Assembly (NCBI GenBank): GCA_000727475.1
Contig: KL647291.1
Location: forward strand, 534,325-598,324
Length of the DNA: 64,000 nt
Direction: 5' to 3'
From: Sarcocystis neurona
Lineage: Eukaryota; Apicomplexa; Conoidasida; Eucoccidiorida; Sarcocystidae
The notes beneath the pieces are model-generated. The model did not search any database, had not been told where the DNA came from, and worked only from the letters and a program-made list of their open reading frames with translations. The stretch's first letter is position 1, and each line of letters begins with the position of its first letter. The position numbers and the translations under genes were made by a program. Positions 9,655-26,865 of this stretch are shown piece by piece.

Positions 9655-11292
9655 ATGACGCAAAACTATGCTGTAAACTCGAACAACCGCCCCGGCGCCC
9701 GCGATACCAGCCATAGCAGCTGCAGCAACACCGTTGCGGGTAGGCGGCGCCCCTCTTTTCGCAAGTACAGCAGTACCGAGGGGTGGGCTTCCTCTGTGGA
9801 ATTGGCTTGCGATTTGAGTAAGCGGGCAGCGGGTGCTGCAACGGCGGCGCTGCTCTCTGCGTTCTCTCCGTCTTCTCCAGGCAAACCCAACAACAACGGA
9901 GCCGTTATGTGTCTCTCTCTGACTTCGGCTGCGGCGAACTTCCAGGCAGAGGCGCACGTCCATGAGAGATCCACTGCGCAGGTCTGGACAGAGAGAATTG
10001 AGGGGAAATCCCGTGTCCCTCTGCTGACGCTGGAGGAGTGTTCGGCGTCCTTCTCTGTTCCTAATGTCAACTCAAATGGTGCATCATCCGCGGCACGCTC
10101 TGCTGCTGCACCTGGTGCAACAGTGGATGCGGATGTCTCCCAAGTTTCCCCTTGCTCCGTTGTGATTCCATCTCCTCGCACACAGCATGCTGCCGCTGGA
10201 GCTACGACCGCGTCCGGCTCCCCAGATGCTGCTACGCCGTCTTCAACAGCGAGCGTCTCACCAGCAAGGAAACCTTGTAGCACTGCTGGCGTCATGAAAA
10301 CTGCCGAAGAAGACGCACCTCGGACAAAAACACGTGCAACGCCTCCACACTTTATCTCTCCCGTTGTGGACGGGCCCCGCGCGGAAATCGGAGACACTTC
10401 GAGCCACGGAGAAGCCGCTGCGCCTCCAAGAGGGGCAGCTGTCGTAGAAGATACCTCTCCTGCGAGAGACGCCTTTAAAGTACCGCAGACCTCTGGAGAA
10501 AGCGACCGCGAGGACTCTGCACCTTATCATGACGAACCGAAGGCCGACGTTGCAAGTTCCTGTGCCTGGTCAGGAGAACCGAACTCGGCAGAAACTTTGC
10601 AGCTTTGTGTAACAGCTCGTCCAGCCGAGGATCGTCTCACGACACGCACCGCTGGGCCACGCCTTTGCCTATCTCGAGAAGCTGTTGAAGCCGCGGTCAC
10701 TCCGGCTGGGGCAGACGCTGCTTTTGTTGCGCGTGGCATTAGCAGTCGTACAGCTTCGCCTGCCGCTGTAGCAGCAGTCAAACTTACAGCAACGTCTGTG
10801 GTGGGAACAAAGCCTAAAAATGAGGACAGGGCCGGACGGGCAGAACAAGGACCTGGAACACTGCACGAAGGACAGATTGAAACGGACTGCCATAGCGGAA
10901 GCAGTAGCACCCAAATCCAACGCACTGAAGGGGATGCTTTGGCAGCTAGACACGCGCCAACGCAAGTCAAGGACTTAACGTCTGGAAGATCTCAGCAGGC
11001 ACAGATAGAAACGGGCCCCCGAAGTGTCCGCCTGAACGAAAGCGAGGAGGGAGACACAGCGCACTCTTCCGTCCATCAAGGCACAGGGAGGACTACTGAC
11101 GGGACGCAGACAAAGGGCACCAGCAGCGAGCCCGCCATTAGTACGGACACGAAGAAGGGCAAGACGTTACCCGTGGACGAGCGTGCTGGAAGGTTGAGTG
11201 ACAAACTGCGCGCCAAGTTCAAACGAGAGTTCAATCGTAGCTGGGTTGATATTAACAGCGCGCCTTCGTGGCCCCCTATAAAAAAGACAAAG
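9655..11292 (+). CDS. Long disordered N-terminal exon
   Basis: About 546 codons from ATG 9655 are rich in Ala, Ser, Thr, Pro and Glu with no hydrophobic core, typical of disordered regions in apicomplexan nuclear proteins. The last 40 residues turn basic and structured (LRAKFKREFNRSWVDINSAP). The exon ends AAG|GTATTT at 11293 in phase 0. No domain is recognised. A plus-strand reading is preferred because this frame is the longest in the area and has normal amino-acid mixture, whereas the overlapping minus frames are Arg/Cys-rich. Confidence 0.6.
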
Positions 11293-14200
11293 GTATTTTT
11301 TAGACACACTTGTGCTGCGTACTGAACTATTCTTTGCGTGCCTCCGAGGCCGCTTGTGCACTTTCAGAAAGCAAAAATGTTCCTCCGAACCAGCATTCCA
11401 CGTACGCTACGGGAGAAGTGGTTCACGCATGTTTGTGGCTGCCGTGCAAGGCGCTTTACCCACTCCCCGCGAGGCACGAGATGTTAGCTCTTACCACCAC
11501 ACATTTGTCGGGTCGCTACTGTTCTCAAACGCCAGTTCTCGCCGACCAGATTCTGCCGTGGGTCTTTTGAAGTAGAATTATCTTTAATCGGAACAAACTC
11601 GGCAAAACGTGCATCTGGTACTCGTGTGTGAGTGACAACCAGGGCAGTGGCTTTGATTCTGCTGCGGATAAATTTCTCGCCACGAATTTAGATGTTTCGC
11701 ATCACCGTCCCGGGCGAGCACTGCAAGTACCTTGCCCTCCGGCGAATTATTTTTTCCCGTACATATGTTTGTTTACGCTCTTCAGACTTGTTTCAGGCAC
11801 GGCGGTACACGATGTCGAAGAATCTGATGAAGCCCGTTTCACAGTGGCGGCTCAGTGGAGTCAGCGTAACTGCTGTCTATTTTGTCTGGAATGACTAATT
11901 GTCTGCGCTCCGTCGTGTTATCTGCGTCTGCTTGTGGCGCAGTTGCGTGAACTGTACACGTGAGCTCTGCAGTTCTGTGCGACGCTGTCCTGTCGGTAGT
12001 CGTGTACTTGGTTTTTTTTTCCAAGCATACACCTGGGAACTCTGTGGCTGCTAAATTTTCGCCTGCTCGAACGGCAGGTGCACGAGTATTCGTAGAACGA
12101 GCAAGCGGCAGAGGATGTTGTGGCGTCAAGCAACACGTACGTCCAGAGTTCCCGTAGTTTCGGTGGGCTGCTGATACAGCTGTACACCGTGCCCGTGGCG
12201 AGACACTCTTCGCTGCTGCGTATCTGTTTGTGCGTAGTGGCACTCGAAGATACTTGTTTACGTGGGATTTTCAGCGCCGTAGTGTGTGTGTGTGTTGATA
12301 CGCGTGTTCAACATTATGCAGTAGCTGCCCACAACGCCCTCCACTTGTTGAGAATTCAGTGCCAGGGGTCGCATTAGGTGTTAAGCAGCGTTCATATGCC
12401 GTGACGCCCTCTAGGCGGGCGGGTAGCGACGATATTAGTGTCGAGGCAAGCGGCTGCGGATGACTGTACCTTTTACGTGTCTGCTGCAGTACTTGACGAG
12501 CGACTGGAAAATTGTAGACCTGCGGGTCGGGGCTACGCAGCGGCAAGAGAAGAAGAAAAATCGCCTGTTTCTGAACAGTTTGTGCTACTTGTTCGACGGT
12601 GTATACACCCAGAAAAGCACTCTTGGACGAAAAGCAGGTGTGTCTGCCGCCTTCAGCATACCCCAGGCGGAGCTGGAGGAAGGCTACGTTTCACAGTGCT
12701 TGCGCCTGGTGTGGACCTTACCGCAGCAGACACTGCGGGAATATATATCAGCTGCACTCGCGCGCGCAACTGCATAAACAGACACACTCCTACACATTCG
12801 TAAATGGAGACGAAGGATATAACTAGGATCCTCAGAAGGCGTGGTGTCTCAGCCAGTAGGCACGGCGCTTGCGTATTCGGACTGCATCTCAGGTGGACGC
12901 GGGGCGATGCAGAAGAAGGAGGATGCATATTTACCTCTGTGCTCCACACACGCGTTAATCGCTGGTGTGCCTGCGTAGTGCAAGTTTCGCGTAGACATAC
13001 ACGTTAGTGTCAACTCTGAAGCCACCTACTTCCATACATCCACTTATGTATGTCAGAGTTTCGAGTGTCCTAGAGTGCAAGCATCGACCTCGCCTGACCC
13101 CGTGTCTATGTCGACTTAGTTGGGATGGCCCGGAATAGTGACCTTCGACGTATTTGCCGAGGCGGGCAGAAAAAGTGAGGGGGACAAAAGCCGAGAGAGA
13201 CAAATTCACGGCGACGGGCTGGAAAACATGACGCGGAAGAGAAGTTTCGAGTTCGGGAAAAAGAATTTCGCTTTTTTGTACGAGGAGATCGAACAGAACT
13301 GTAGTAGAAACGTATGTGTGTGTATACCTGGTACGGTGGCAGCGCCTGAACCAAAGCTCCTACTTTGCCGCGTTCCACTGCGTTGAAAAAGCGCTGTGGA
13401 CATGCAAACGAGTGGTATCCGCGCTAACACGTGCCGCACGGGTTTCAGACGGCATACGGGTGCATATGTGTGTGCTGAAATGGGTCACTGCAAGACGCGT
13501 ATTAATGACCGTGTATTTGAATATGTATGCACAGAGCAGTAGATCTCCGTAGCCGGTGTGCACGTCTGTGTACGCGCTATCTGAGTGGGTTTCTGTGGAC
13601 CTCTGTGCGTGCCGGTTGGACCACCGCGTTTACTCGTAGTGTATTTACGTACTCGGTCTACCAAATAATGGTACATTACTCGTAGTGTGTTTACGTACTG
13701 GATCTACCAAATAATGAGGTGCGCTGGTTTCTGCGTGCCGCATCTGGGCGTGGTGCGTGAGCGGCCTTTCGAGTTGTAGAACTCAGTCGCTTGTCTTTTT
13801 TGCGTGCGCTGCATGTGCACTGCAGCCCCCGCGCCACTGCAAGTGTCTCGACATTGTTGTCGCCGCACGTACGGAGAGCACCAAAGCCTCGCACCTAATG
13901 TGTGCTTGTGTACACCTGCTTGAAGTCCTTCTTCAGAGGATGGCGCTTGGCGGAGAATCACACAGAGAGCGTCCGTTCGAACATTTGTTTGGTTGTGCGT
14001 CTCGCTATGCCGCAGGCTTGGGGCTCTTCTGCGAGCGACCTGAAGGCTTCCGAAAGGGGCAGATTATTACGGAATTTGTTGGCTGGTTGGTGGATCGCGA
14101 GCAGGCGGAGTCATACCGTAAGCAGCGCGCTGCTTCGCACATTGTAGCCGTGCAGGTAAGCTCTTCCTTGTGGAGGAACTTTTGTAATAACCTGCACGCG

Positions 14201-17200
14201 ACTGGTCGTAGGGGCGCCGCATGGTTCTTTTTTATCTCTTTTGTGGCGTCATTATAATGCCGGTGCGACGACCCTCCTAAACCGAATTAAGAGAAGGTGT
14301 AGCCCAGGAACTGCGAACCTGCAGGAGCTGGTGCGTAGGTCGGGGTATTCAGAGCCCTACACATGTGACGACGCACACGTTTTCGCTGCGACGTTAAAAT
14401 TTGTTCTGCTTTTTCACTCAGAAAGGCTTTCTGTACATCGACGGAGCGAAAGAGCCTACATACGGCATGGGAGGGGGCAGCTTTGCCAACGACGGAAGCG
14501 AATTCCTAGGAGGACCAGGCAACAACGCTCATTTCTATCACTGGTATGTCATCGCGTTCTTTCTATTTCTGCATGTCGGTCAACGGGAAACTTCAGGGTT
14601 GCAGCTCACCCATTGCTGTCGTGAATAAATTACATATGTCTACGCGTCCAAGTTGCAAACCGGTACACACAATCCTGCGGGTCAGGTCTTCGGTAGCAGC
14701 AGCAGCGCTCCCTGTTCGAAGTGCCGGTGTTGTGCTGAGGGAGGCACTTGCTTCCGGCATTTCGCACTCCGTCGTTTTCTGCTGCGTGTTGTCACCGGTT
14801 ATGAGAGCGTGCCGCGCCTCAGTAGTGATCGTCCTGCTGGTGGTACTGCCGGTGCCTCTCGCCTGCCGCTGCTGTTGGCTGCAGCCTTGATGACGAACTG
14901 GGACGGACGCTTCTGCACTCCGTCGTTTCTGCTGCGTGTTGTCGCCGGTTGTGAGCGTGCCGCGCTTGATTAGTGATCTTCCTGCTGGTGCTACTGCCGA
15001 TGCCTTTCCCCTGCCGCTGCTGCTGGCTGCAGGTTCGATGACGAACTGGGACGGACGCGAGTGTTCATTCGTGCAACAGCAGATATCAGGAGTGGACAGG
15101 AAATTTTCGTCCCATACGAACGGACTTACTGGGTGGATAACTTCGAGGAACAGGCAAGTGCATCCGGGGTTGTAACCAACCGGCTCGGGGATTCAGAAAA
15201 GCTGTGGTTTCTCGTGGGACCTGTCCTCAGGCGTCACTCGACCCGATAAAGCGGCCTCCCTTTCCCTTTGTGTGTGGTTTTTCTCGTTTATGAAGTGTAC
15301 TGTGTCGTGGGCGGCACGCTCTGCACACACAGTATAGCCCCCGTCTATTCTGCTTAGACAGGTTCGGAAAATAGTCCTCTTCCAACAAAATATTTTGGCG
15401 TTGCAGCAAGGTGTGTCACATGTCCCGGAGGATACAGCCATCTACCAAACGCCTAGGTATCGCATCCTCTCTGCTTTCCGCTCTGTTGTTTCCATGTGAG
15501 ACAACCTCTCTGTGTGGTGCTGGGTTAGCCAAAAGAGGAAATTCTGTCTGTTGCATATAGTACATCTGTGCTCTCGGAGTTCTCCAGAACTGTTACATCT
15601 TCGCCATTTGGCGCGTCGTGAATGAATTTTAATTAGTACATTCGTCCGGGCGTGGTTTCCTCGTTCCTGCTGAGAAGACCGAGGCGGCATCTCGGTTTCT
15701 GTGTGTGTCTCTTTCTTAGTAGGGTTCCACCGCTAAAAATTTCATTAAACACCTTGGATTTGCCTAGAGGAGAAAAGCCGTGCACAAACGCCTCGTGCTC
15801 CACTCACTCGACTCATCCTTGTGTAAAATGATGAGAGTGCATGTCTGAATTCGCAGTGTTGTAACTCTTGTGCTCTGCGTCGAGAAAAACACGGCAATGC
15901 AGAAAAGAGCGGAAGGAATTTTTTTCTTTCGTGATCGGATAAATCGACGTGTCTTTGTTACCAGACATTATCTTTGCCGCTTTAATGACGATGACGTCGG
16001 GATGCCCCGCTCTAAATTTGAGCGTATGTCTGCCGGGGAGCCTAACTCACTCGTGCGTGAACTCCTGAGAGCTTTAAGGCGACAGAGTAATAAGAGATCA
16101 TTTTTGTTGGCGGTGGTGAGTTGCACTGGCAATCCGACTTGTAGACGATACCGACCGACGCCAAAAACATCAGTTCAGACGAGCCAGGACGCTGTTGTAT
16201 GTGTGAACTGGTATTTATTTGAACGTGACGGACTTTTTTCCACGTGAATGTTCACCTGTTCTGTAGACGTGTTTCTGTGCTTGTGGCAGAGAGCGCAGCG
16301 ATTCACTCTCCAGGTGTGAGCTGCGGCGTGTGCGCAGGCGGAGAACTGCCCGGAACCTTTTCGAAAGAAGAAGCTTGAACAGCTCCGCAAGAAAATACGT
16401 CACGTGGAGGAGTTGCACAAGAGCAGGCTAGCAGCCAACAAACAAAAAGCTTCTTCTTCCGCCGCAGCAACAGTGAGCCATGCGGCCCGCACTTCCGCGA
16501 ATCAAAGAGCTTTGCAGCAGAGGGAGGAGGGGCGTCAGCTGCGGGAGAAAAATAATAGACCGCGCATCAATCTGAAGCGACCGCTCAGTGCATACATGCT
16601 TTTTTCGAAGGAAAGACGGAGAGAACTCTTACTGCAGCACTACCGACCAGCTGAGCAACAGGTTCAGCTGCAAGTGTCTTCAGCGGCACCAGGGGGAGAC
16701 GCAGGCGCTTATTCGGTGTTGTCCCCTAACGAAAAACAGGCCCCTCCGTTGCAGCCGGTGAAAACTCAGCGACACGAGAAACCGCCCACGAAAGACGAGG
16801 ACACGCCGCCGGCGTTAACGTTGGAGGGGCGGCGGCTCGCAGCGTGCGCGGGAACAGCTAATTCTCCACGAGGTAGTGAACTAGAGGAAGGAAGAAGACG
16901 ATTGCGAAGCCGGAAGCTCATCGACAGCTCAGTTGCCGGAAGTGCCGGGGGCGTGGATGCATGTGACCCGCAGGGTGTGGCCTACGCTGTAGTTCAGCAA
17001 CCGGAAAGAGCGGGAATAAGGGAAGAAGGCATGGACACTAGCGCTCTTCACACTCGTGACAGTGCTGCTGCCGGTACCGCTGCTGATGCTGCTGGTGGTT
17101 TCGCAGTCTCTGTGAGGGGCGGGAAGGAAGAAGCGGGAGTGCAAACGAGGCGACGCAGCAATCGACTGAGCCAGGGCGCAGCACCGTCTGCTTGCTTAGA

Positions 17201-19382
17201 GAATGCTGCTGCGGATGAGACTTTGAGCCTAAGCGCGGAGGCTGAGCGAGCAGCAGCAGCAGCACCAACGGGAGCGACACGAAGAAGTAGCGGGGAACTG
17301 GCGAGTGGAAAGCCAGTACGCACGCTAACGGGTGGCGGCACGACGGCAAAGTGGGGAGAAGACGGGAAAGGAACAAGTGAGACAGTGGAAGGGCGAAGAA
17401 GATCTCCCCGGTGGCTGCAGGCCAGCAATCGAGGCCAGTTACCTGCAGCCGCAGCTGGATTGTTAGCCGAGAAAAACGCGACAAGGAGAAACGATGTGCA
17501 AAACAGCGGGACGGGGGAAGACTTTGTTGGCAGGCTTCGGACCTTGGGAACAAAAGCGCGTGAAGCGAACGAAGAGGGGCATCACTCCAACAGGAACATG
17601 GGCATTGTCGATTCCACGCAGTCGGACTACGCGATTGAAAACCGGAAAACTCCACGTGCACTTTCGACGGGGGAGGCCACGTCCAAAACTTGTCCTCTCT
17701 TCACCGCCGCCCCTTGTTGCCAGAAAAGAAAACGCAGCGCTGCAGATGAAGAGAACACGAGGACTGCTGCTGCGGAGGCTTGTACACACGTCGCCGCAGC
17801 GGCCCGTCAGTCACCGAATGCACCGGCGCCAGTAGGACCCAAGGCTGAAGCCATTCTAGAGCAGGAAGCACGAAGCGACGACGAGGTCGAACTTGTGGAT
17901 GAACAGCCTGGTGCATCTAAGTCCCGAGGAGGGGCGGAGGAAGCTCCTCAGGCGGATGCAGTGGCAGTAGACAGGAAGAATGCTGTTCTGCAGCACTTCG
18001 CGTCTGTGATACGTAGAGTTGCAGGCGAGTGGAGCGCGATGCCAGCGCTGGAGCGCCGTCGGTGGGAACGGTTAGCAGCGAAGCAACGCGAACGATACGT
18101 GCTGTTGCGGCAGAGATATACTCCCAAGCAGCCGCGACGCAACACCAAACAGCGTAGTCGCTGCACAAGGAAAAAGCCATTGCCTCACAAGACGAAGACA
18201 GTTCTGCATACCCAGAAGAGAAAGGGCGTGAAACTAACCGGTACGGCCGAAGGACTTTCTGTTCCTGCGAAGGCAGTGCAAAGCACGGCTGCCCCACAAA
18301 AAGCACTGGCAGCGAACTCTGCTGTTGCTGCAGCTGGTGGGACAACCAGAGGAAGTTCTGTAGCACCAGAAGGAGCGGCGGCCGCTGAGCCGAAAGAAGC
18401 CGAGCGTAACACGAGAGCAAGCGCATCGTACAGGTCCGCGGTAGTAACACGAATGGAACTGCAGGCTTCGGAATTCAACGACCACTCTGTAGGAGGAAAA
18501 GAAGGCGATGCAGAGCAAACAGGGGCTTCAAAGGAAGCGAAGTGGCGTCCGATGGGGAGAAAGAGCTGCGTCACACGAGCTGCAAAGCGTGCAGCCGAAG
18601 GTGCAACAGAAAGAAGTTTGTGTAATGTGTCTCAGAAACACACCGTGCGCCACGAGCAGGCGCAGGCTGAGCAGCTGCAGGAAGAACAGCGCAAGCAGCC
18701 GCAGCAACCCCGTGACGCGCGGCACACTGGGGAGGGCCGACACCACTGTCATACGACGCACGCGCAGCAGCCCAAGCGGAGCAGGCGTCACGTAGATATG
18801 GCAGAAACATCCGCGAGGAGTAAGAAGGCAACGCCTGACAGCGTGAGTCAGCAGAAGCCGATGTTGTCCTTCTCGAGCTGGAGTTTCATCAGCAGACTGA
18901 GCTCGTGCTCCACGACGCGCAGTAGCAGCAGCCGCAACAGCAGCCGTGGAAGTCGCGGCCACACGAATACTGACACCAGCCGCAACTGCCAAGTACCACA
19001 CAAAAGAAATAACCTTTCACTGAGTACAGGTGACAGAGCTGACGCTTGCGTGCAAGTCGACAGCGTCCGGCGAATGCGAGAGGGGCAACAGGATGCGATC
19101 GACGCTGAGCGGCAAGGTGCCATGCGGTCCCGACAGCACCAGCGCGAGCAAAAGTCGGAGCAGAGCAAAAGCCTACAGGGTCTTCCAGCGATGCGGCAGC
19201 AACGGCAGTCACAGAGAGGAAGACGTCAGCAACGAGAGAGTGGGGAGAGACCGCAGAGCGGTCCTCGAAAGGAATTTGTCCCGGTGTGTTCAGGAGAGCA
19301 GCGCGCCAGAGGGAAGAGACGGCGATCGTGGTCGCCTTCATGCGCCACGCGTGCCGACCGTGCGTTTTCAGCTACATCATAG
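9655..19382 (+). CDS. SET-domain protein with an HMG box split by a large insertion (multi-exon model)
   Basis: Proposed exons are 9655-11292, a middle exon from 12490, 13120-13311, 13937-14155, 14422-14543, 15033-15153, 15903-16115 and 16338-19382. Apart from the 14543/15033 junction (phase 2, completing a Trp codon) the joins I could check are phase 0. The product would be a nuclear histone or protein lysine methyltransferase with a DNA-bending HMG module. The SET domain lies in 13937-15153. The HMG box lies in the last exon. That exon has no ATG upstream of the first HMG helix, so it must be spliced to something upstream, which favours one fused gene. The alternative is two genes, with an HMG gene starting at ATG 16002. 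The first ATG of the long exon is 9655; another ATG at 9513 is in a different frame and would need a splice. The link between the N-terminal exon and the SET exons is inferred from phase and strand only. Confidence 0.5.
12490..12774 (+). CDS. Candidate middle exon (3' end unsettled)
   Basis: The acceptor tctgctgcag precedes 12490 and opens a phase-0 frame (YLTSDWKIVDLRVGATQR, then NRLFLNSLCYLFDG) that stays open to a stop at 12775-12777. The start phase matches the donor at 11293. A donor is needed before the stop: AGCAG|GTGTGT near 12640 has the best sequence but the wrong phase for the next exon, and CTG|GTGTGG near 12708 has the right phase but is weak. An unseen exon may lie between. The domain is not recognised. 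Confidence 0.35.
13120..13311 (+). CDS. Exon preceding the SET domain
   Basis: An in-frame TAG at 13117-13119 doubles as the acceptor (tcgacttag), and 64 codons follow to a donor AAC|GTATGT at 13312, phase 0 at both ends. The peptide is charged and coding-like (GLENMTRKRSFEFGKKNF, then YEEIEQN). It joins the SET exon at 13937 in phase 0. It probably forms the region just N-terminal to SET; no named pre-SET Cys cluster is visible. Confidence 0.5.
13631..13714. repeat. 46-bp tandem duplication inside an intron
   Basis: The unit starting tactcgtagtgt at 13631 recurs at 13677. Both copies end ctaccaaataatg. It sits in the intron between the exons ending at 13311 and starting at 13937. Confidence 0.8.
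13937..14155 (+). CDS. SET domain exon 1
   Basis: The acceptor ccttcttcag precedes 13937, and the donor GTGCAG|GTAAGC is at 14156; phase 0 at both ends. It codes the first SET strand set: GCASRYAAGLGLFCERPEGF corresponds to the usual G-x-G cofactor-binding start, followed by KGQIITEFVGWLVDREQAE, matching the 'kGeiI.eY.Ge.i...ea' motif of SET proteins. An ATG at 13940 could start a shorter protein, but the upstream exon joins in phase, so an internal exon is preferred. Confidence 0.75.
14422..14543 (+). CDS. SET domain exon 2
   Basis: The acceptor tttttcactcag precedes 14422; the donor TG|GTATGT is at 14544, phase 2. It codes KGFLYIDGAKEPTYGMGGGS, then FANDGSEF and GNNAHFYHW. These match the SET-I region and the N-H-S-like pseudoknot segment; here the Asn of FAND and NNAHF take the place of the classical NHSC-PN motif, a variant known from protist and plant SET proteins. 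The cofactor-binding Asn is therefore plausibly retained. Confidence 0.75.
14761..15059. repeat. 150-bp tandem duplication spanning intron end and exon start
   Basis: Copy 1 is 14761-14910 and copy 2 is 14911-15059, with roughly 85-90 percent identity by eye. The unit holds the polypyrimidine tract, the 3' splice site ggctgcag and the first 27 bases of the following SET exon. Copy 2 supplies the real acceptor (exon from 15033). Copy 1 keeps an equivalent AG at 14883-14884 followed by codons for LDDELGRT, making a decoy exon start. Confidence 0.85.
15033..15153 (+). CDS. SET domain exon 3 (C-terminal part)
   Basis: The first base completes the Trp codon split by the previous intron. It codes FDDELGRTRVFIRATADIRS then GQEIFVPYERTYW, the end of a SET domain: 'rv.i.A.rdI..GeEl..dY...Yw'. 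The Tyr of VPYERTYW is the candidate catalytic Tyr. The exon ends CAG followed by GCAAGT, the consensus of a GC-AG intron; the other frame reading simply runs on to a stop at 15247. Confidence 0.75.
15154..15159 (+). other. Non-canonical GC splice donor
   Basis: CAG|GCAAGT directly follows the SET domain and matches the consensus for the minor GC-AG class. No GT donor lies nearby in a suitable place. Using it keeps phase 0 and joins either to 15903 (preceded by aatgcag) or directly to 16338. Confidence 0.55.
15903..16115 (+). CDS. Candidate linker exon between SET and HMG regions
   Basis: The acceptor caatgcag precedes 15903 and the donor GTG|GTGAGT is at 16116, phase 0 at both ends (71 codons). 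The peptide contains RRVFVTRHYLCRFNDDDVG and MPRSKFERMSAGEPNSLVRE with a helical tail. It could instead be the start of a separate HMG gene, using ATG 16002. No domain is recognised. Confidence 0.4.
16338..19382 (+). CDS. Large exon with HMG box split by a 445-residue insertion
   Basis: The acceptor gtgtgcgcag precedes 16338. A basic coiled segment (RKKKLEQLRKKIRHVEELHK) comes first. Then 16572-16643 codes the first half of an HMG box, with LKRPLSAYMLFSKERRREL matching the conserved 'pKRPlsAYmlFs' start and helix 1. The second half, HFASVIRRVAGEWSAMP followed by ERRRWERLAAKQRERY, lies at 17979-18119 and matches helices 2 and 3. The 1,335 bp between them code low-complexity, charged, Ala/Arg/Glu-rich sequence without a stop or obvious intron. 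After the box come basic and Gln-rich tails of about 420 residues. The exon stops at 19380-19382. It likely acts in the nucleus on DNA or chromatin. Confidence 0.7.
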   Translation, partial: AENCPEPFRKKKLEQLRKKIRHVEELHKSRLAANKQKASSSAAATVSHAARTSANQRALQQREEGRQLREKNNRPRINLKRPLSAYMLFSKERRRELLLQHYRPAEQQVQLQVSSAAPGGDAGAYSVLSPNEKQAPPLQPVKTQRHEKPPTKDEDTPPALTLEGRRLAACAGTANSPRGSELEEGRRRLRSRKLIDSSVAGSAGGVDACDPQGVAYAVVQQPERAGIREEGMDTSALHTRDSAAAGTAADAAGGFAVSVRGGKEEAGVQTRRRSNRLSQGAAPSACLENAAADETLSLSAEAERAAAAAPTGATRRSSGELASGKPVRTLTGGGTTAKWGEDGKGTSETVEGRRRSPRWLQASNRGQLPAAAAGLLAEKNATRRNDVQNSGTGEDFVGRLRTLGTKAREANEEGHHSNRNMGIVDSTQSDYAIENRKTPRALSTGEATSKTCPLFTAAPCCQKRKRSAADEENTRTAAAEACTHVAAAARQSPNAPAPVGPKAEAILEQEARSDDEVELVDEQPGASKSRGGAEEAPQADAVAVDRKNAVLQHFASVIRRVAGEWSAMPALERRRWERLAAKQRERYVLLRQRYTPKQPRRNTKQRSRCTRKKPLPHKTKTVLHTQKRKGVKLTGTAEGLSVPAKAVQSTAAPQKALAANSAVAAAGGTTRGSSVAPEGAAAAEPKEAERNTRASASYRSAVVTRMELQASEFNDHSVGGKEGDAEQTGASKEAKWRPMGRKSCVTRAAKRAAEGATERSLCNVSQKHTVRHEQAQAEQLQEEQRKQPQQPRDARHTGEGRHHCHTTHAQQPKRSRRHVDMAETSARSKKATPDSVSQQKPMLSFSSWSFISRLSSCSTTRSSSSRNSSRGSRGHTNTDTSRNCQVPHKRNNLSLSTGDRADACVQVDSVRRMREGQQDAIDAERQGAMRSRQHQREQKSEQSKSLQGLPAMRQQRQSQRGRRQQRESGERPQSGPRKEFVPVCSGEQRARGKRRRSWSPSCATRADRAFSATS

Positions 19383-19701
19383 AACGTTTCTAAGAAGTGG
19401 AGGTGTTGTCACATTTGTGATTCCAACGGCAGCGGACAACTCCCTCAGTTTCGGTGGTTATGGGGATATGTTCACATCCCTTGACAGCGACACTGAGAAT
19501 GTAAATGGGCAGGGCGATACCGTCGACAGACGCGTCTGCAGTGCCTACACTACGTGGCGCGCTGGCAGTATCATCGAGCAGGGTTTCATGTTTGGTATAA
19601 GTAACCGAAAGAGGGACATCACAGGCGACTGCAGCAGAAGGCAGTGGCACAGACAGCAGAAGCATTCGGCCCTCTTGCAGCCAGAAGAGCGCATGAAATA
19701 A
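19371..19701 (+). CDS. Alternative 3' exon of the SET/HMG gene
   Basis: If CCG|GTGTGT at 19284 is a donor and cgttttcag before 19371 the acceptor (an 87-bp intron, phase 0), translation moves to another frame and continues about 110 codons to a TAA at 19699-19701. The peptide there has balanced composition (GGVVTFVIPTAADNSLSFGG, then DMFTSLDSDTEN). Without this splice the protein ends at 19382. RNA evidence would decide. Confidence 0.3.
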
Positions 19702-21827: not shown

Positions 21828-22658
21828 GCGGCCCCGTCAAGTCAAGACGGGCACGATGTTGAGACGGTCAAGGGGGGGAGTATCGAGAATATTCCTTCCT
21901 CCGCATGTCTGCGGAGCCTGAAATGCCCGGTAGAACGATTCATCCGATGCCGTCTCTTGGTGAATGAGACAGTCTGACTGGTATCCCGCTGGTACTTGTC
22001 GTTTCCGGTTGTGTGCTGCTCCATCTGCTGCTACAGCTGCTCCTCCAGCTACGGCGCTGGTGGCATCTTCCCCAGTGCGAATTGCACGTGATCCCGTTCA
22101 ATGCAGACGCTTTCGCGTCATGTTAAGGCGCAGAGAAAATTTCGCTGTTGTTGTTCTTACCTGCGAAATGAGCCACTCGGTCAATTCTGGTGCCACAGTA
22201 TTGGGTCAGCAACAAGTTAGTTGATTCACGAACGGAGCACGGCAGCGCTGCTGCACACTCGATAAAACACGCCACCGCGCCGCACGAGTCACTTAGCACG
22301 GATTATCAATAGAGGAAGCACCACAGCAGCATGAGCAGATGCAGAATACAAAAGCAAGGCCGTGGCACGGATAATAAGTGAGACAGCAGGGAAGCTGTAC
22401 ACAAGAGACCCGGCGAACAGTGCAGCGCAGACTACCTGAACAGTCAGCAACCGCAGCCGCACTGCACCTGCTGAACAATGTGAGAGAAGCGCGATCACAG
22501 CATCACAAGAAGTACCGAACGAAAACCAGGTGACGCGCCCCTGTTCATCGCTTCCTACCGCCAAACGAGTTTACAGAGCAAAACACGCCACTCTTGGGGT
22601 GAAGCAGCAAGAATGTTCCAAGCACTAGGGGGAAACGTAACGACTGAAATCTAGCATT
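21828..22658. other. Intergenic; upstream region of the next gene
   Basis: No coding frame is convincing here. The stretch is A/G/C-mixed, without microsatellites, and lies between a stop on the + strand at 21827 and the ATG at 22659. It should hold the 3' end of one transcript and the promoter and leader of the next. Confidence 0.4.
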
Positions 22659-25600
22659 ATGTCTAGCATCTCACCAAAAGCGAGTGAGGACCAGAACGCA
22701 GGATATGGCGTGCACCAGGCACACGAGGAGAGCCCTCTTACTGGTGGAATTGCAGAAGAAGCTCGACTGGATCGTGATTTGGATGCTGAACTCGCGTGCC
22801 TCATTGAGCAAATAAACGCCCCGCCACTCGGGACAGCAACAGAATATCGACGGCATACTACAACTTTTTTGAAGGAGAAAAGCAAGGAAATAGAACAGCC
22901 GAGCCTTTCTGAAGCGAGCGCCCCGGCACGCAGCCGCAGCACCAGTAGCAGCATACCAGGAGGCAGAGTGGAGGATGCACTACAGACAAGCTCTGCTACG
23001 TCGTCTGATGTTGTAAAACTGAAAATCCCAGCTAATGAACTCCATACAAGCACCACAGCACGCAGCACCCGCATTAAGAGTGGCGGCGTATCAAGAAGCA
23101 GAAAGGATTCAACACCCTCAAGTTCTACCGCTGTTGCCAAAGTGAGGGTGGCAGCTAACGAAGTGCCGACACAGAGGAAAGATCAATCGACTGGCCAACA
23201 GCGCCAGTCACAAGTAAGTGCAGCTGCAGCGCAGCATTGTAAAAGAGCCCAGAACACAGCGGCGAAGGGTAGAGCTTCTCGTACAGCCACAAGGAAGCTC
23301 TGTGGGAACGAACAAACTCTGCGTGACTCCCGCGTCTCCCAGAGAACAAGCACTACAGTCATCAACAAACTAGCTGCAACAACCTCCTCGGCACCTGCGG
23401 CGCCGCTTCCAGGACCAGGCTCTCCACACCACCGTCTTGTCACTCCAAAAGCTACAAGTCGTGTTGCCGGTCAACGTCGTGAGCACTCCGCTGCTACACG
23501 TGTTCCGTTACCTGTTGCGCGTGCCTCAAAAGGTATTGATGGAACTGTTTGCGCTTCACAGGCTGTTCCTAGTTCAGGCGTCGCAGCCAAACATCCTGTA
23601 GCTGCAGCGATACGCGGTGCCCTCGCCGCGGTTGCCGCGTCTGTGCTTTCCGCAGCAGCAGCATCTAGTGAGCAGTCTGATGTGGTGGCACCTGTCACGA
23701 CCGCAAGCGCAGTCGTTGGTGCTGAGGTCACACCTGCGAAAGATGGCTTTTCAGAAAGGCGGAAGGTGGTTGATCGGCAGATCGAGCGCTGGCAGGTCGC
23801 CAGCGACGCTACAACTGCAGCTCGGCAGCTTAACGGGGCAGCCGGTGCAAGACGTAAACGCGTGATGGCCAGGACAGCATCCTCTCGCACTGGCTCTTTC
23901 TCAAGAAGACAGGGGAAACTGGGAAGCAGAAAGGCCTGGAAGAGAGCTAGCACAGTTGGAGGCGCCAGCGACTTTGGTACGTTGCACACACTCTCCTCTT
24001 GTGAGGGACCGCAGTCACTGCGACTTCATACACGAAAAGGGCGTTCGTGCTGCGCAGCTTTCTTAGCACCCCCTCGTCCAGATAGAGGTCATTTGATCAG
24101 AGGACAGCGCACACTTGTTTGTTAGTATACTGCGTCCTGACCGCTGGAAATGTATCCTCGCTGGAAGCCAGTACAGCCTGTCGTACCCACTACATACTCA
24201 GAGGATGTGCTTTTTTGCAAACTTGTATTTACTGAGAAGCTACGGGCATTACGTCCATGTGTATACGTATCCACACACGTGGAGGTGTTTTGGTCCACAG
24301 AGGCACTTCACGTGATTCTATCTATGTCTGATGTTCACTTCCACAGTTCGCGCGTCGAACTCATACCTCTTCCCCTCGTAGGACTGTGCGGCCATTTTTC
24401 AGTTGTGCACTGAAATGTACCATATCATACTTAAAAAAATATAACCATGAGGGCAGGTTTCTGTGCACTTCACCTGAAACGCGGAAAGCAGTGCTGTGAT
24501 GACTGCCGTGCAAGGCGTGGTCTTAAGGGCGGCAGCGTAGCTGGCGTTCTGGCAGAAGAACACTGCAAACAGGGGAGGGGCGTTCTGCAGAAAGAAGGTG
24601 ACTCCCTATACTGAGTATTCTTCGGCGACTTTGTTCTTTCGTGACGCTTGACACATCAAATAGTTGGTGTGACGAGGGGCTGACGTTCATGTGCACTTGT
24701 TTTACAAGTGCTGAATTCTGCTGCCCCGCTACTGAAGCTGTATAGAGGTGGGAACACTGTTGGTATTTTCCTTCATTTTACACCCCTCGGAGAGAAGCTG
24801 AGCCTTGCACTGCTTACCTTCACACTCCTCTGCGAGTAGCGTAGGTGCTCCGGGTGCTACGGCTGTAGCCTCGTTTGATATACCATACTTAATGTTCCTC
24901 GTCATTTTCAGTAAAGGCGGTGATTTCTTTCTTGCAGATATTGCTTGCTGAAACACAATAGCTCCGCTTCCGTGGTACTCCGGTTACAATTGAACGTCTT
25001 GTTTGCACGTAGGGCCCCCTCCCCGTGTTCACTTCATCGCAGGAGGGACGTGATTTCGACCCTAGTTTGCCCTGCAGTAGTTGCGATGTAGTCGTGTTCC
25101 TGAGTGGGTGTTTCTGCTGCTGTGTTGCAACTCCTTTCCTGCTGCCAGCGTCTCCCATTGAAACAACTTTTTCGCTTTCAGTGGCCTGCGTCTGCTGCTG
25201 GTATCTAGTGAACGTTGGCTTGCTTCTGCGAGAGGTGTGGGTTCGGTCTTCAGGTGACCTCGACTTCAGGTGGGGAATGTATCCGCAGGATCGCCGGTGG
25301 AATGAACGGAACAACTTGCGTTATTCTTTTGTGGAAGTGTTGGACTCCCCCCCTCATCCAGTGTACGCTGGTACCTCTGCATCTGCAGAGTTCGGGCACA
25401 GTGGAGTGGCGAACGATCGCCGCGTCTTGCCTCCAACTCTGAGTTCATCGAATGGCATAGCAAATGCGTTGCCGTATCGGACACTCTACGAACGTCCAAT
25501 GGATTATGTAGTGGGGATGCAATATGATACGCATTACCAGCTACCCACGCTCTCTAGGCTCTTGCATGCGAGACAGCCCGAATTTCTTCAAAATAGCTCG

Positions 25601-26865
25601 GCTGCTGCAAAGCAGGTGAAGAAACAACAGCGACAACATAGTCGTCAGCACAGGAAACAGGAGTCGTGGTCAAGACTTAAGAATATGAGGTATCGGCTAC
25701 GACTGGTGTTCCCACCTGACGCGTGTTGGCCGCCGTTGGAGATTGAAGGCAAAATATCTAGAACTACTTCTGGAACGTACAGTTTTTCCGTCACCTCAGC
25801 AAGACGCATCGCCAGCAGCACCACCAGCCTTCCCAGCAGCAGCGAGATCAGGCGAGACAAGGGCAGCAACGCAGCTGACGCCAAATTAGGTGGCAAGGAT
25901 GGGGGCAGAAGCAACGGTTTAACTGCTGCCACACCAGTGCGTGGTGCTGCCCGAGCAACTGGGCGGCAGTCGCAGGGCAATGGCATTATAAAAAAGGCAA
26001 ACTCGGCGGTCCACCGAGGGGAGGGGAATGAGGAATCTGCGGAAGAGGAGGTCACTGATGCCGGCCATGAGGGAAGAACTCTTAGTAGCGCACAGAGGGT
26101 CGACAACAAGCGACCTCGATACAATTACTCAGCTTGTTTTCCACTTGCTGGCTGGCACACGGAAGCACCTCGCAGAAGGGAGGATTCTTGGTGGAAACCT
26201 GAAATCGAACTCACGGGCCACGTGGAAGGTACGATAACCCTCGCGTGGCCCTCCGCTAAAGGTGGAGCCGGACCCACCCTCCAAAATCAAGGGAGAAAGA
26301 CTCTTTGGTGAAATAACGACTCCGTCGAGAAAGTTTCGATCGTACCAGTGCGCACAGCTGCGAGACGATGCGAAACTTATCCCGACAGAGAGTGCAGCCG
26401 AGTCAATCTTTCTGCTCCACAGGCAGACCCAGTGCAAGACCCGTTGCCACGAGGTGCTGTCTCTGTTGTTCACAGTGCAGAGGCTCCCTGCACAACGGGA
26501 CGGCTAATTCCGTCACGACTCTATGTGTTCGGTAACGTCACGTCTTTCTACGTACTATAGTTTTTGTCACTTCCGTTACTTTCCGAAATACGCAGCGACA
26601 AAGCTTTGTGACAGGCAGTGCGTCAAAAATCAAACGAACCAAATGGCAACGTTGTATGGTTACGCAGGTTTCTAACCGTAAAACCAGATTATACAATTTA
26701 GCTGGAATGGGTGCCTCTGAACAAGCATTGCTAAGTTACTATAAACCTCTTGGTACCTCTAGGAAACTTGAAGGTGGTGCTCCTGCACCCACTGGAGATC
26801 TATTTGGAGCCAGAGTGGATCTCTTGTCGCTCGCGCGCCTTCGGCGCGCAGCGCCGTGTATGTGA
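22659..26865 (+). CDS. Unidentified 847-residue protein, three exons
   Basis: Exons are 22659-23976, 25254-26228 and 26615-26865; both introns (1,277 and 386 bp) are phase 1 GT-AG (TTTG|GTACGT to ggtcttcag; GGAAG|GTACGA to tttgtgacag). The summed length is 848 codons including TGA. The start MSSISPKASEDQNAGYG follows a stop-rich leader. Residues 1-440 are disordered, Ala/Ser/Thr-rich with basic patches, except for an acidic helix near residues 35-50. The second exon has a more ordered start (WNERNNLRYSFVEVLDSPPH) and a segment YRLRLVFPPDACWPPLEIEG. The C terminus includes KIKRTKWQRC and LSYYKPLGTSRKLEGG. I recognise no domain and assign no function. There are no membrane segments or signal peptide. 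Confidence 0.6.

Follow-up and report, generated by a model that had tools for sequence, protein, structure and literature searches.

A 64,000-nucleotide stretch of the Sarcocystis neurona genome (contig KL647291.1, positions 534,325 to 598,324; hereafter the window) carries on its forward strand a single open reading frame (ORF; 16320-19379, 1,020 codons) in which both halves of an HMG box are present, in order, on either side of a long low-complexity insertion. Judged by homology, the ORF is exon 6, the last, of a putative lysine methyltransferase gene with SET and HMG domains, an orthologue of Toxoplasma KMTox, the orthology being assigned by similarity. The box is made up as follows.

16572-16643, forward strand: HMG box half 1, N-terminal strand and helix 1 (Pfam profile 2-23; model helix 85-102 in exon 6 numbering)
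16644-17978, forward strand: 445-codon low-complexity insertion at the helix 1-helix 2 turn, open in frame
17979-18119, forward strand: HMG box half 2, helices 2 and 3 (Pfam profile 28-68; model helices 538-567 and 570-594)

An HMG box in two halves

The initial annotation had claimed that both halves lie in one open frame 1,335 bp apart, and this is what we find: the three peptides it quoted share a frame in the translation of 16572-18119, hmmscan reports two stretches, and 0 stops intervene. On the whole ORF the HMG_box profile (PF00505) scores 35.9 bits (E 1e-8, the stretches counted at a limit of 10), above the curated cut-off of 25.4 bits. Searched separately against 24,736 models, as had been advised, half 1 (16320-16679) matches profile positions 2-23 at 20.1 bits (E 8.6e-4) and half 2 (17979-18260) positions 28-68 at 23.2 bits (E 9.8e-5), so that each alone falls below the cut-off exceeded by their sum. 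A six-frame genome search with E up to 10 recovers the halves at 23.2 and 21.1 bits, both below 25.4, and at default settings misses them, each being scored separately. The domain is thus hidden from profile searches, as had been proposed, where its halves are scored separately at the default threshold, but not where HMMER is given the whole ORF.

The insertion sits between profile positions 23 and 28, at the turn to which it had been assigned, and is about six times the length of the domain. Because an HMG box is a contiguous domain of about 70-75 residues and this one is interrupted by 445 codons, we class it not as a typical box but as an HMG box variant with an inserted loop.

Over its 1,335 bp (445 codons) the insert has 0 in-frame stops, compared with 15, 19, 11, 10 and 6 in the other five frames and with a mean of 13.1 (minimum 4, zero in 0 of 2,000 runs) in first-order Markov simulations. 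The insert also shows strong codon periodicity in its base composition (chi2 71.2, reached by 0 of 500 null runs), comparable to that of exon 1 (98.4); introns 2 and 5 lack periodicity (3.5 and 1.6) and intron 1 is borderline (14.9, reached by 16/500), the comparison covering these three introns. With no in-frame stop and a periodicity above the three introns tested, the insert reads as coding sequence, and we infer that it is translated in S. neurona. An origin as a transposon or introner was rejected, the sole other genome match of the insert being 38 bp long (123 Mb searched, by a search that skips simple repeats). The direct repeat CTGCAGCACT flanks the insert at 16632 and 17988; it was rejected as a target-site duplication because the same 2 kb holds further exact pairs of 10 bp (D6-D8), so that it does not stand above background.

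A KMTox-type gene of six exons

The gene extends beyond the ORF, with SET exons upstream. Colinear tblastn blocks of P0002 (1,802 aa), a related protein that we take to be Sarcocystis-type, together with splice sites give the following six exons, with additional evidence in brackets.

9655-11292, forward strand: exon 1, long low-complexity N-terminus ending in a conserved FKREFNRSWVDINSAPSWPPIKK block (splice site AAAG/gtattt)
12490-12637, forward strand: exon 2, conserved region ahead of the SET domain
14016-14155, forward strand: exon 3, first part of the SET domain (SET profile match)
14422-14543, forward strand: exon 4, SET domain (SET profile match)
15033-15153, forward strand: exon 5, last part of the SET domain, followed by a GC-AG intron (SET profile match)
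16338-19382, forward strand: exon 6, post-SET coil, two-half HMG box, basic C-terminal tail and stop (ORF, Pfam)

Joined, these exons encode 1,737 aa without internal stops; four donors are GT and that of intron 5 is GC, with AG acceptors in all five introns. Exons 3-5, joined in a query whose first ~25 residues were later recognised as intronic, match the SET domain (PF00856) at 25.0 bits against a cut-off of 22.4, which the Toxoplasma, Neospora and Besnoitia proteins (18.3-20.0 bits) and P0002 (22.1) do not reach. The SET query is 83% identical to T. gondii KMTox across 82% of its length (E 2.2e-86), and the full gene model is 62% identical across 357 residues. T. gondii KMTox has seven matches in the genome, six in the present gene and one in a SET ORF at C22 (39% identity). 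A SET and an HMG domain thus occur together in one gene model, as membership of KMTox would have it. The alternative of two separate genes was rejected, as the orthologues join the halves and the intron ahead of exon 6 is GC-AG at the junction found in P0002.

PMC9487757 describes KMTox as an apicomplexan family of nuclear lysine methyltransferases, the T. gondii enzyme methylating histones H4 and H2A in vitro and recognising bent DNA through its HMG domain, with Cryptosporidium KMTox lacking that domain.

Three further features of the gene were observed. Intron 5 (15154-16337; donor ACAG/gcaagt) links the SET domain to the post-SET coil, and P0002 is joined at the same place. A 148-bp tandem duplication (14764-15058; two copies, 88% matches) lies in intron 4 and extends some 26 bases into exon 5, which leaves the exon 5 acceptor region duplicated. 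P0002 residues 1715-1796 align at 19435-19680 (about 36% identity), in another frame and past the stop at 19380-19382, so that a change of frame, or a 3' intron that went unrecognised, may set the C-terminus apart from that of P0002.

Insertion length across orthologues

The SET query retrieved 14 proteins at E<=10 among 654 candidates. The top relatives are the KMTox proteins of Toxoplasma, Hammondia, Besnoitia, Cardiosporidium and Cystoisospora, HMG-box proteins of Neospora and Eimeria, an uncharacterised Cyclospora protein, and P0002. Eight of the 14 (P0002-P0009) reach the HMG box; for P0011-P0015 the precomputed Pfam column, not a profile scan of the sequences themselves, lists no HMG box. 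In an alignment of the window with P0002-P0009 (A3), the spacing from the REL motif of helix 1 to the Trp of helix 2 is 467 residues in the window and 457 in P0002; 121 in Toxoplasma, 140 in Neospora, 117 in Hammondia and 162 in Besnoitia; and 23 in Eimeria, 23 in Cyclospora and 21 in Cardiosporidium. This corresponds to 447, 437 and 97-142 residues above the canonical spacing in the window, P0002 and the four Toxoplasma-group proteins, respectively, and to a contiguous box in the last three. The initial annotation would have been contradicted by orthologues in which the halves belong to different proteins, yet all eight keep both in one protein in the same order, and five have an insertion at the same turn.

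T. gondii KMTox (P0003, 880 aa) and its Neospora, Hammondia and Besnoitia counterparts resemble the window in their SET and C-terminal HMG domains, in conserved blocks over exons 1-5 and in the position of the insertion. They differ in its length, in a loop sequence hardly alignable with that of the window, and in a Cys or Ser at the start of helix 2 where the window has Phe. The proteins of Eimeria necatrix, Cyclospora cayetanensis and Cardiosporidium cionae (P0007-P0009) share the SET and HMG architecture, but unlike the window have a contiguous box, with 21-23 residues between the anchors. This pattern of spacing across the eight orthologues indicates that the loop marks the Sarcocystidae sampled and is longest in the Sarcocystis-type proteins. 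Cardiosporidium is a nephromycid, outside Coccidia by taxonomy; since it, Eimeria and Cyclospora have an ordinary turn, the contiguous box is most simply ancestral, and the insertion would most simply have arisen in the line to Sarcocystidae, becoming about three to four times longer in Sarcocystis-type proteins.

Between the window and P0002 identity is 23/23 in half 1, 31/45 in half 2, 38/69 in the post-SET coil and 129/419 in the loop; between Toxoplasma and Neospora the corresponding values are 19/22, 32/45, 59/65 and 45/101. The loops of the first pair align with a global score of 250 (500 shuffles: mean -15, s.d. 19, maximum 50) and those of the second with 155 against 50 (reached by 0/500 shuffles), indicating homology within each pair. 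All the loops are common in position and composition, 57-72% of their residues being S, A, G, P, T, E or Q. By comparison with shuffles, clusters of three basic residues are enriched in each of six loops (4-7 observed, 0.5-1.6 expected), and three basic residues followed by S, with no more than one residue between, in three of them (window, P0002 and Neospora); both enrichments are suggestive only.

Other searches added little. The raw ORF gave no homologue at E<=0.01 among 7,989 candidates scored, low-complexity words having probably swamped the search, and exon 6 residues 1-115 gave none at E<=10 among 319 candidates, a weak result since the length limit excludes P0002 and shorter exon-6 fragments. 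Searches of viral contigs, Rfam and tRNAs yielded no lead, and a limited literature search found no report of an apicomplexan HMG box insertion.

Elsewhere in the genome at least three HMG boxes score above the cut-off (L001, L002 and L003), all contiguous (profile 1-69, 1-68 and 1-69); L001, with 126 codons, is a short ORF resembling HMGB. A very weak match to HMG_box 31-67 (L015; 15.1 bits, E 3.6) lies within a stretch rich in glutamine-coding ORFs and is probably due to chance, though it could be an intron-split box. The SET ORF at C22 (G000:C22:600317-600724, L008) is open for 1,045 codons and possibly belongs to another apicomplexan SET family. Downstream of KMTox, two long forward ORFs (22641-24122 and 25013-26308) have no Pfam match at E 0.01.

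Predicted assembly of the box and its possible role

The AlphaFold model of exon 6 brings the two HMG halves together across the insertion, and the assembled part, a predicted three-helix L-shaped fold, matches solved HMG boxes. The model shares the KRPLSAYM-like start, the three helices and the fold with HMGB/HMG-D-type boxes (1ckt, 1qrv, 4qr9; NHP1 2lhj), but where those have a turn of a few residues it has about 450. The box is thus predicted still to fold, with a disordered loop, in keeping with the earlier proposal that the fold could tolerate one. A model of the T. gondii protein was also made, in which the SET part is poorly predicted (predicted local distance difference test, pLDDT, mostly <50) and was not used.

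HMG boxes carry a primary intercalating residue in helix 1, which is Met13 in HMG-D, and another where helix 2 begins, 11 residues ahead of the Trp, which is Phe37 in HMGB1 box A. In the window we take these positions to be the Met of SAYMLF in half 1 and the Phe of QHFASV in half 2. With one position in either half, the box would bend DNA only once the two have come together, and the loop would depart beside the second position. The box most likely folds and binds bent DNA, and is most economically read as a normally folding, DNA-bending box with a stretched turn, in an enzyme that uses it to sit on bent DNA.

We favour, with considerable confidence, an explanation that takes the two-part box, the open frame with its coding signal and the position and length of the insertion across species as observed, the gene structure from homology and the orthology from similarity. 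The ORF would be the final exon in the gene for a histone lysine methyltransferase of KMTox type, in which a SET domain precedes a C-terminal HMG box. In the lineage leading to Sarcocystidae a disordered segment rich in basic clusters would have arisen in frame in the helix 1-helix 2 turn, reaching about 440 residues in Sarcocystis-type proteins, and would be translated. Helix 1 would pair with helices 2 and 3 across it, giving an HMG box of the ordinary L shape from which the loop juts out next to the start of helix 2, and the box would tether the SET domain to bent or distorted DNA. The flexible basic loop might touch DNA non-specifically, supply signals for nuclear import or make contact with partners, or might simply be tolerated. 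The bending of DNA, the tethering and whatever role the loop may have are what we infer.

Several points weigh against this explanation. P0002 may be based on cDNA or on a gene predictor, its source being silent. Exon 6 downstream of the insert is only borderline periodic (chi2 15.1, reached by 12/500 null runs), and since it scores much like intron 1, periodicity is no clean discriminator on its own. The P0010 model (Cystoisospora suis) ends inside the SET domain, ahead of the box, and in Toxoplasma, Neospora and Besnoitia Pfam gives one stretch only, half 1 there being placed by alignment. Sarcocystis-type and Toxoplasma-group loops score within shuffles in four of six comparisons (109-189/500 reach the score) and weakly in the other two (32/500 and 54/500), and those of Toxoplasma and Besnoitia also lie within shuffles (196/500). 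Because loop sequences across groups mostly score within shuffles, a single origin of the insertion is suggested by position alone, the alternative being repeated insertion at one permissive turn. Foldseek alone found no match at E<=0.001 (best 0.18, root mean square deviation 20 A), and the window and T. gondii models, with predicted template modelling scores (pTM) of 0.39 and 0.26, were built from 9-row alignments in which contiguous boxes are present.

An unlikely extension of the same explanation is that the box of Sarcocystidae KMTox is gated by its loop, which has basic clusters and, in Sarcocystis-type proteins, RRRS-like sites, and which, lying beside the second intercalating residue, would tune the grip on bent DNA by charge, phosphorylation or in-frame splicing of 16662-17993.

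It is improbable that the box is decaying, the insertion having abolished DNA binding and left functionless remnants, with SET working alone as in Cryptosporidium KMTox. The residue 11 before Trp, presumably the second intercalation position, is indeed Ser in Besnoitia and Cys in Toxoplasma, Neospora and Hammondia, but Met and Phe are kept at the two presumed positions in both Sarcocystis-type proteins. The halves look constrained, since between the window and P0002 they are more identical (23/23 and 31/45) than the loop (129/419). In favour of decay there is also Cryptosporidium KMTox, described in PMC9487757 as having no HMG domain.

The insert could instead be an intron, or a facultatively spliced exonic intron yielding isoforms with and without the loop, through the following segment.

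16662-17993, forward strand: 1,332-bp GT...AG segment, hypothetical, in frame and of phase 0 at either end (acceptor good, donor CAG/GTTCAG poor)

The pair lies at the right place, its acceptor is pyrimidine-rich (TGCTGTTCTGCAG), and its removal would yield a compact HMG box with a turn of ordinary length. However, the donor GTTCAG agrees with GTRAGT at none of positions +3 to +6, whereas the five donors of the gene (GTATTT, GTGTGT, GTAAGC, GTATGT and GCAAGT) agree at 2-4 of them, as counted by eye. Zero stops over 445 codons, codon periodicity, a loop open and alignable (129/419 identity) in P0002, a spliced-form protein, and insertions at the same turn in deposited proteins of four other species all argue against an intron. 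An ordinary, constitutive intron was rejected on the open frame, the periodicity and the alignable P0002 loop; facultative splicing, for which there is room because P0002 may rest on cDNA or on gene prediction, is very improbable. It is scarcely credible that the halves work as two modules in their own right, for instance once a disordered loop that at this length would be protease-sensitive has been cleaved, given that their order is kept in all eight orthologues reaching the box, that they are predicted to assemble, and that neither half of such a small fold would be expected to be stable by itself.

A box assembling across a translated loop, as we favour, carries a caution for annotation, that in apicomplexan genomes half-domain matches too weak to pass the cut-off can be the parts of a single split domain. 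The KMTox orthologues also form a natural length series in one domain, with 21-23, 117-162 and 457-467 residues between the same anchors and with intact outgroups. This makes two questions testable: what size of insertion a DNA-binding fold of 70 residues can bear, and whether such an insertion gains function.
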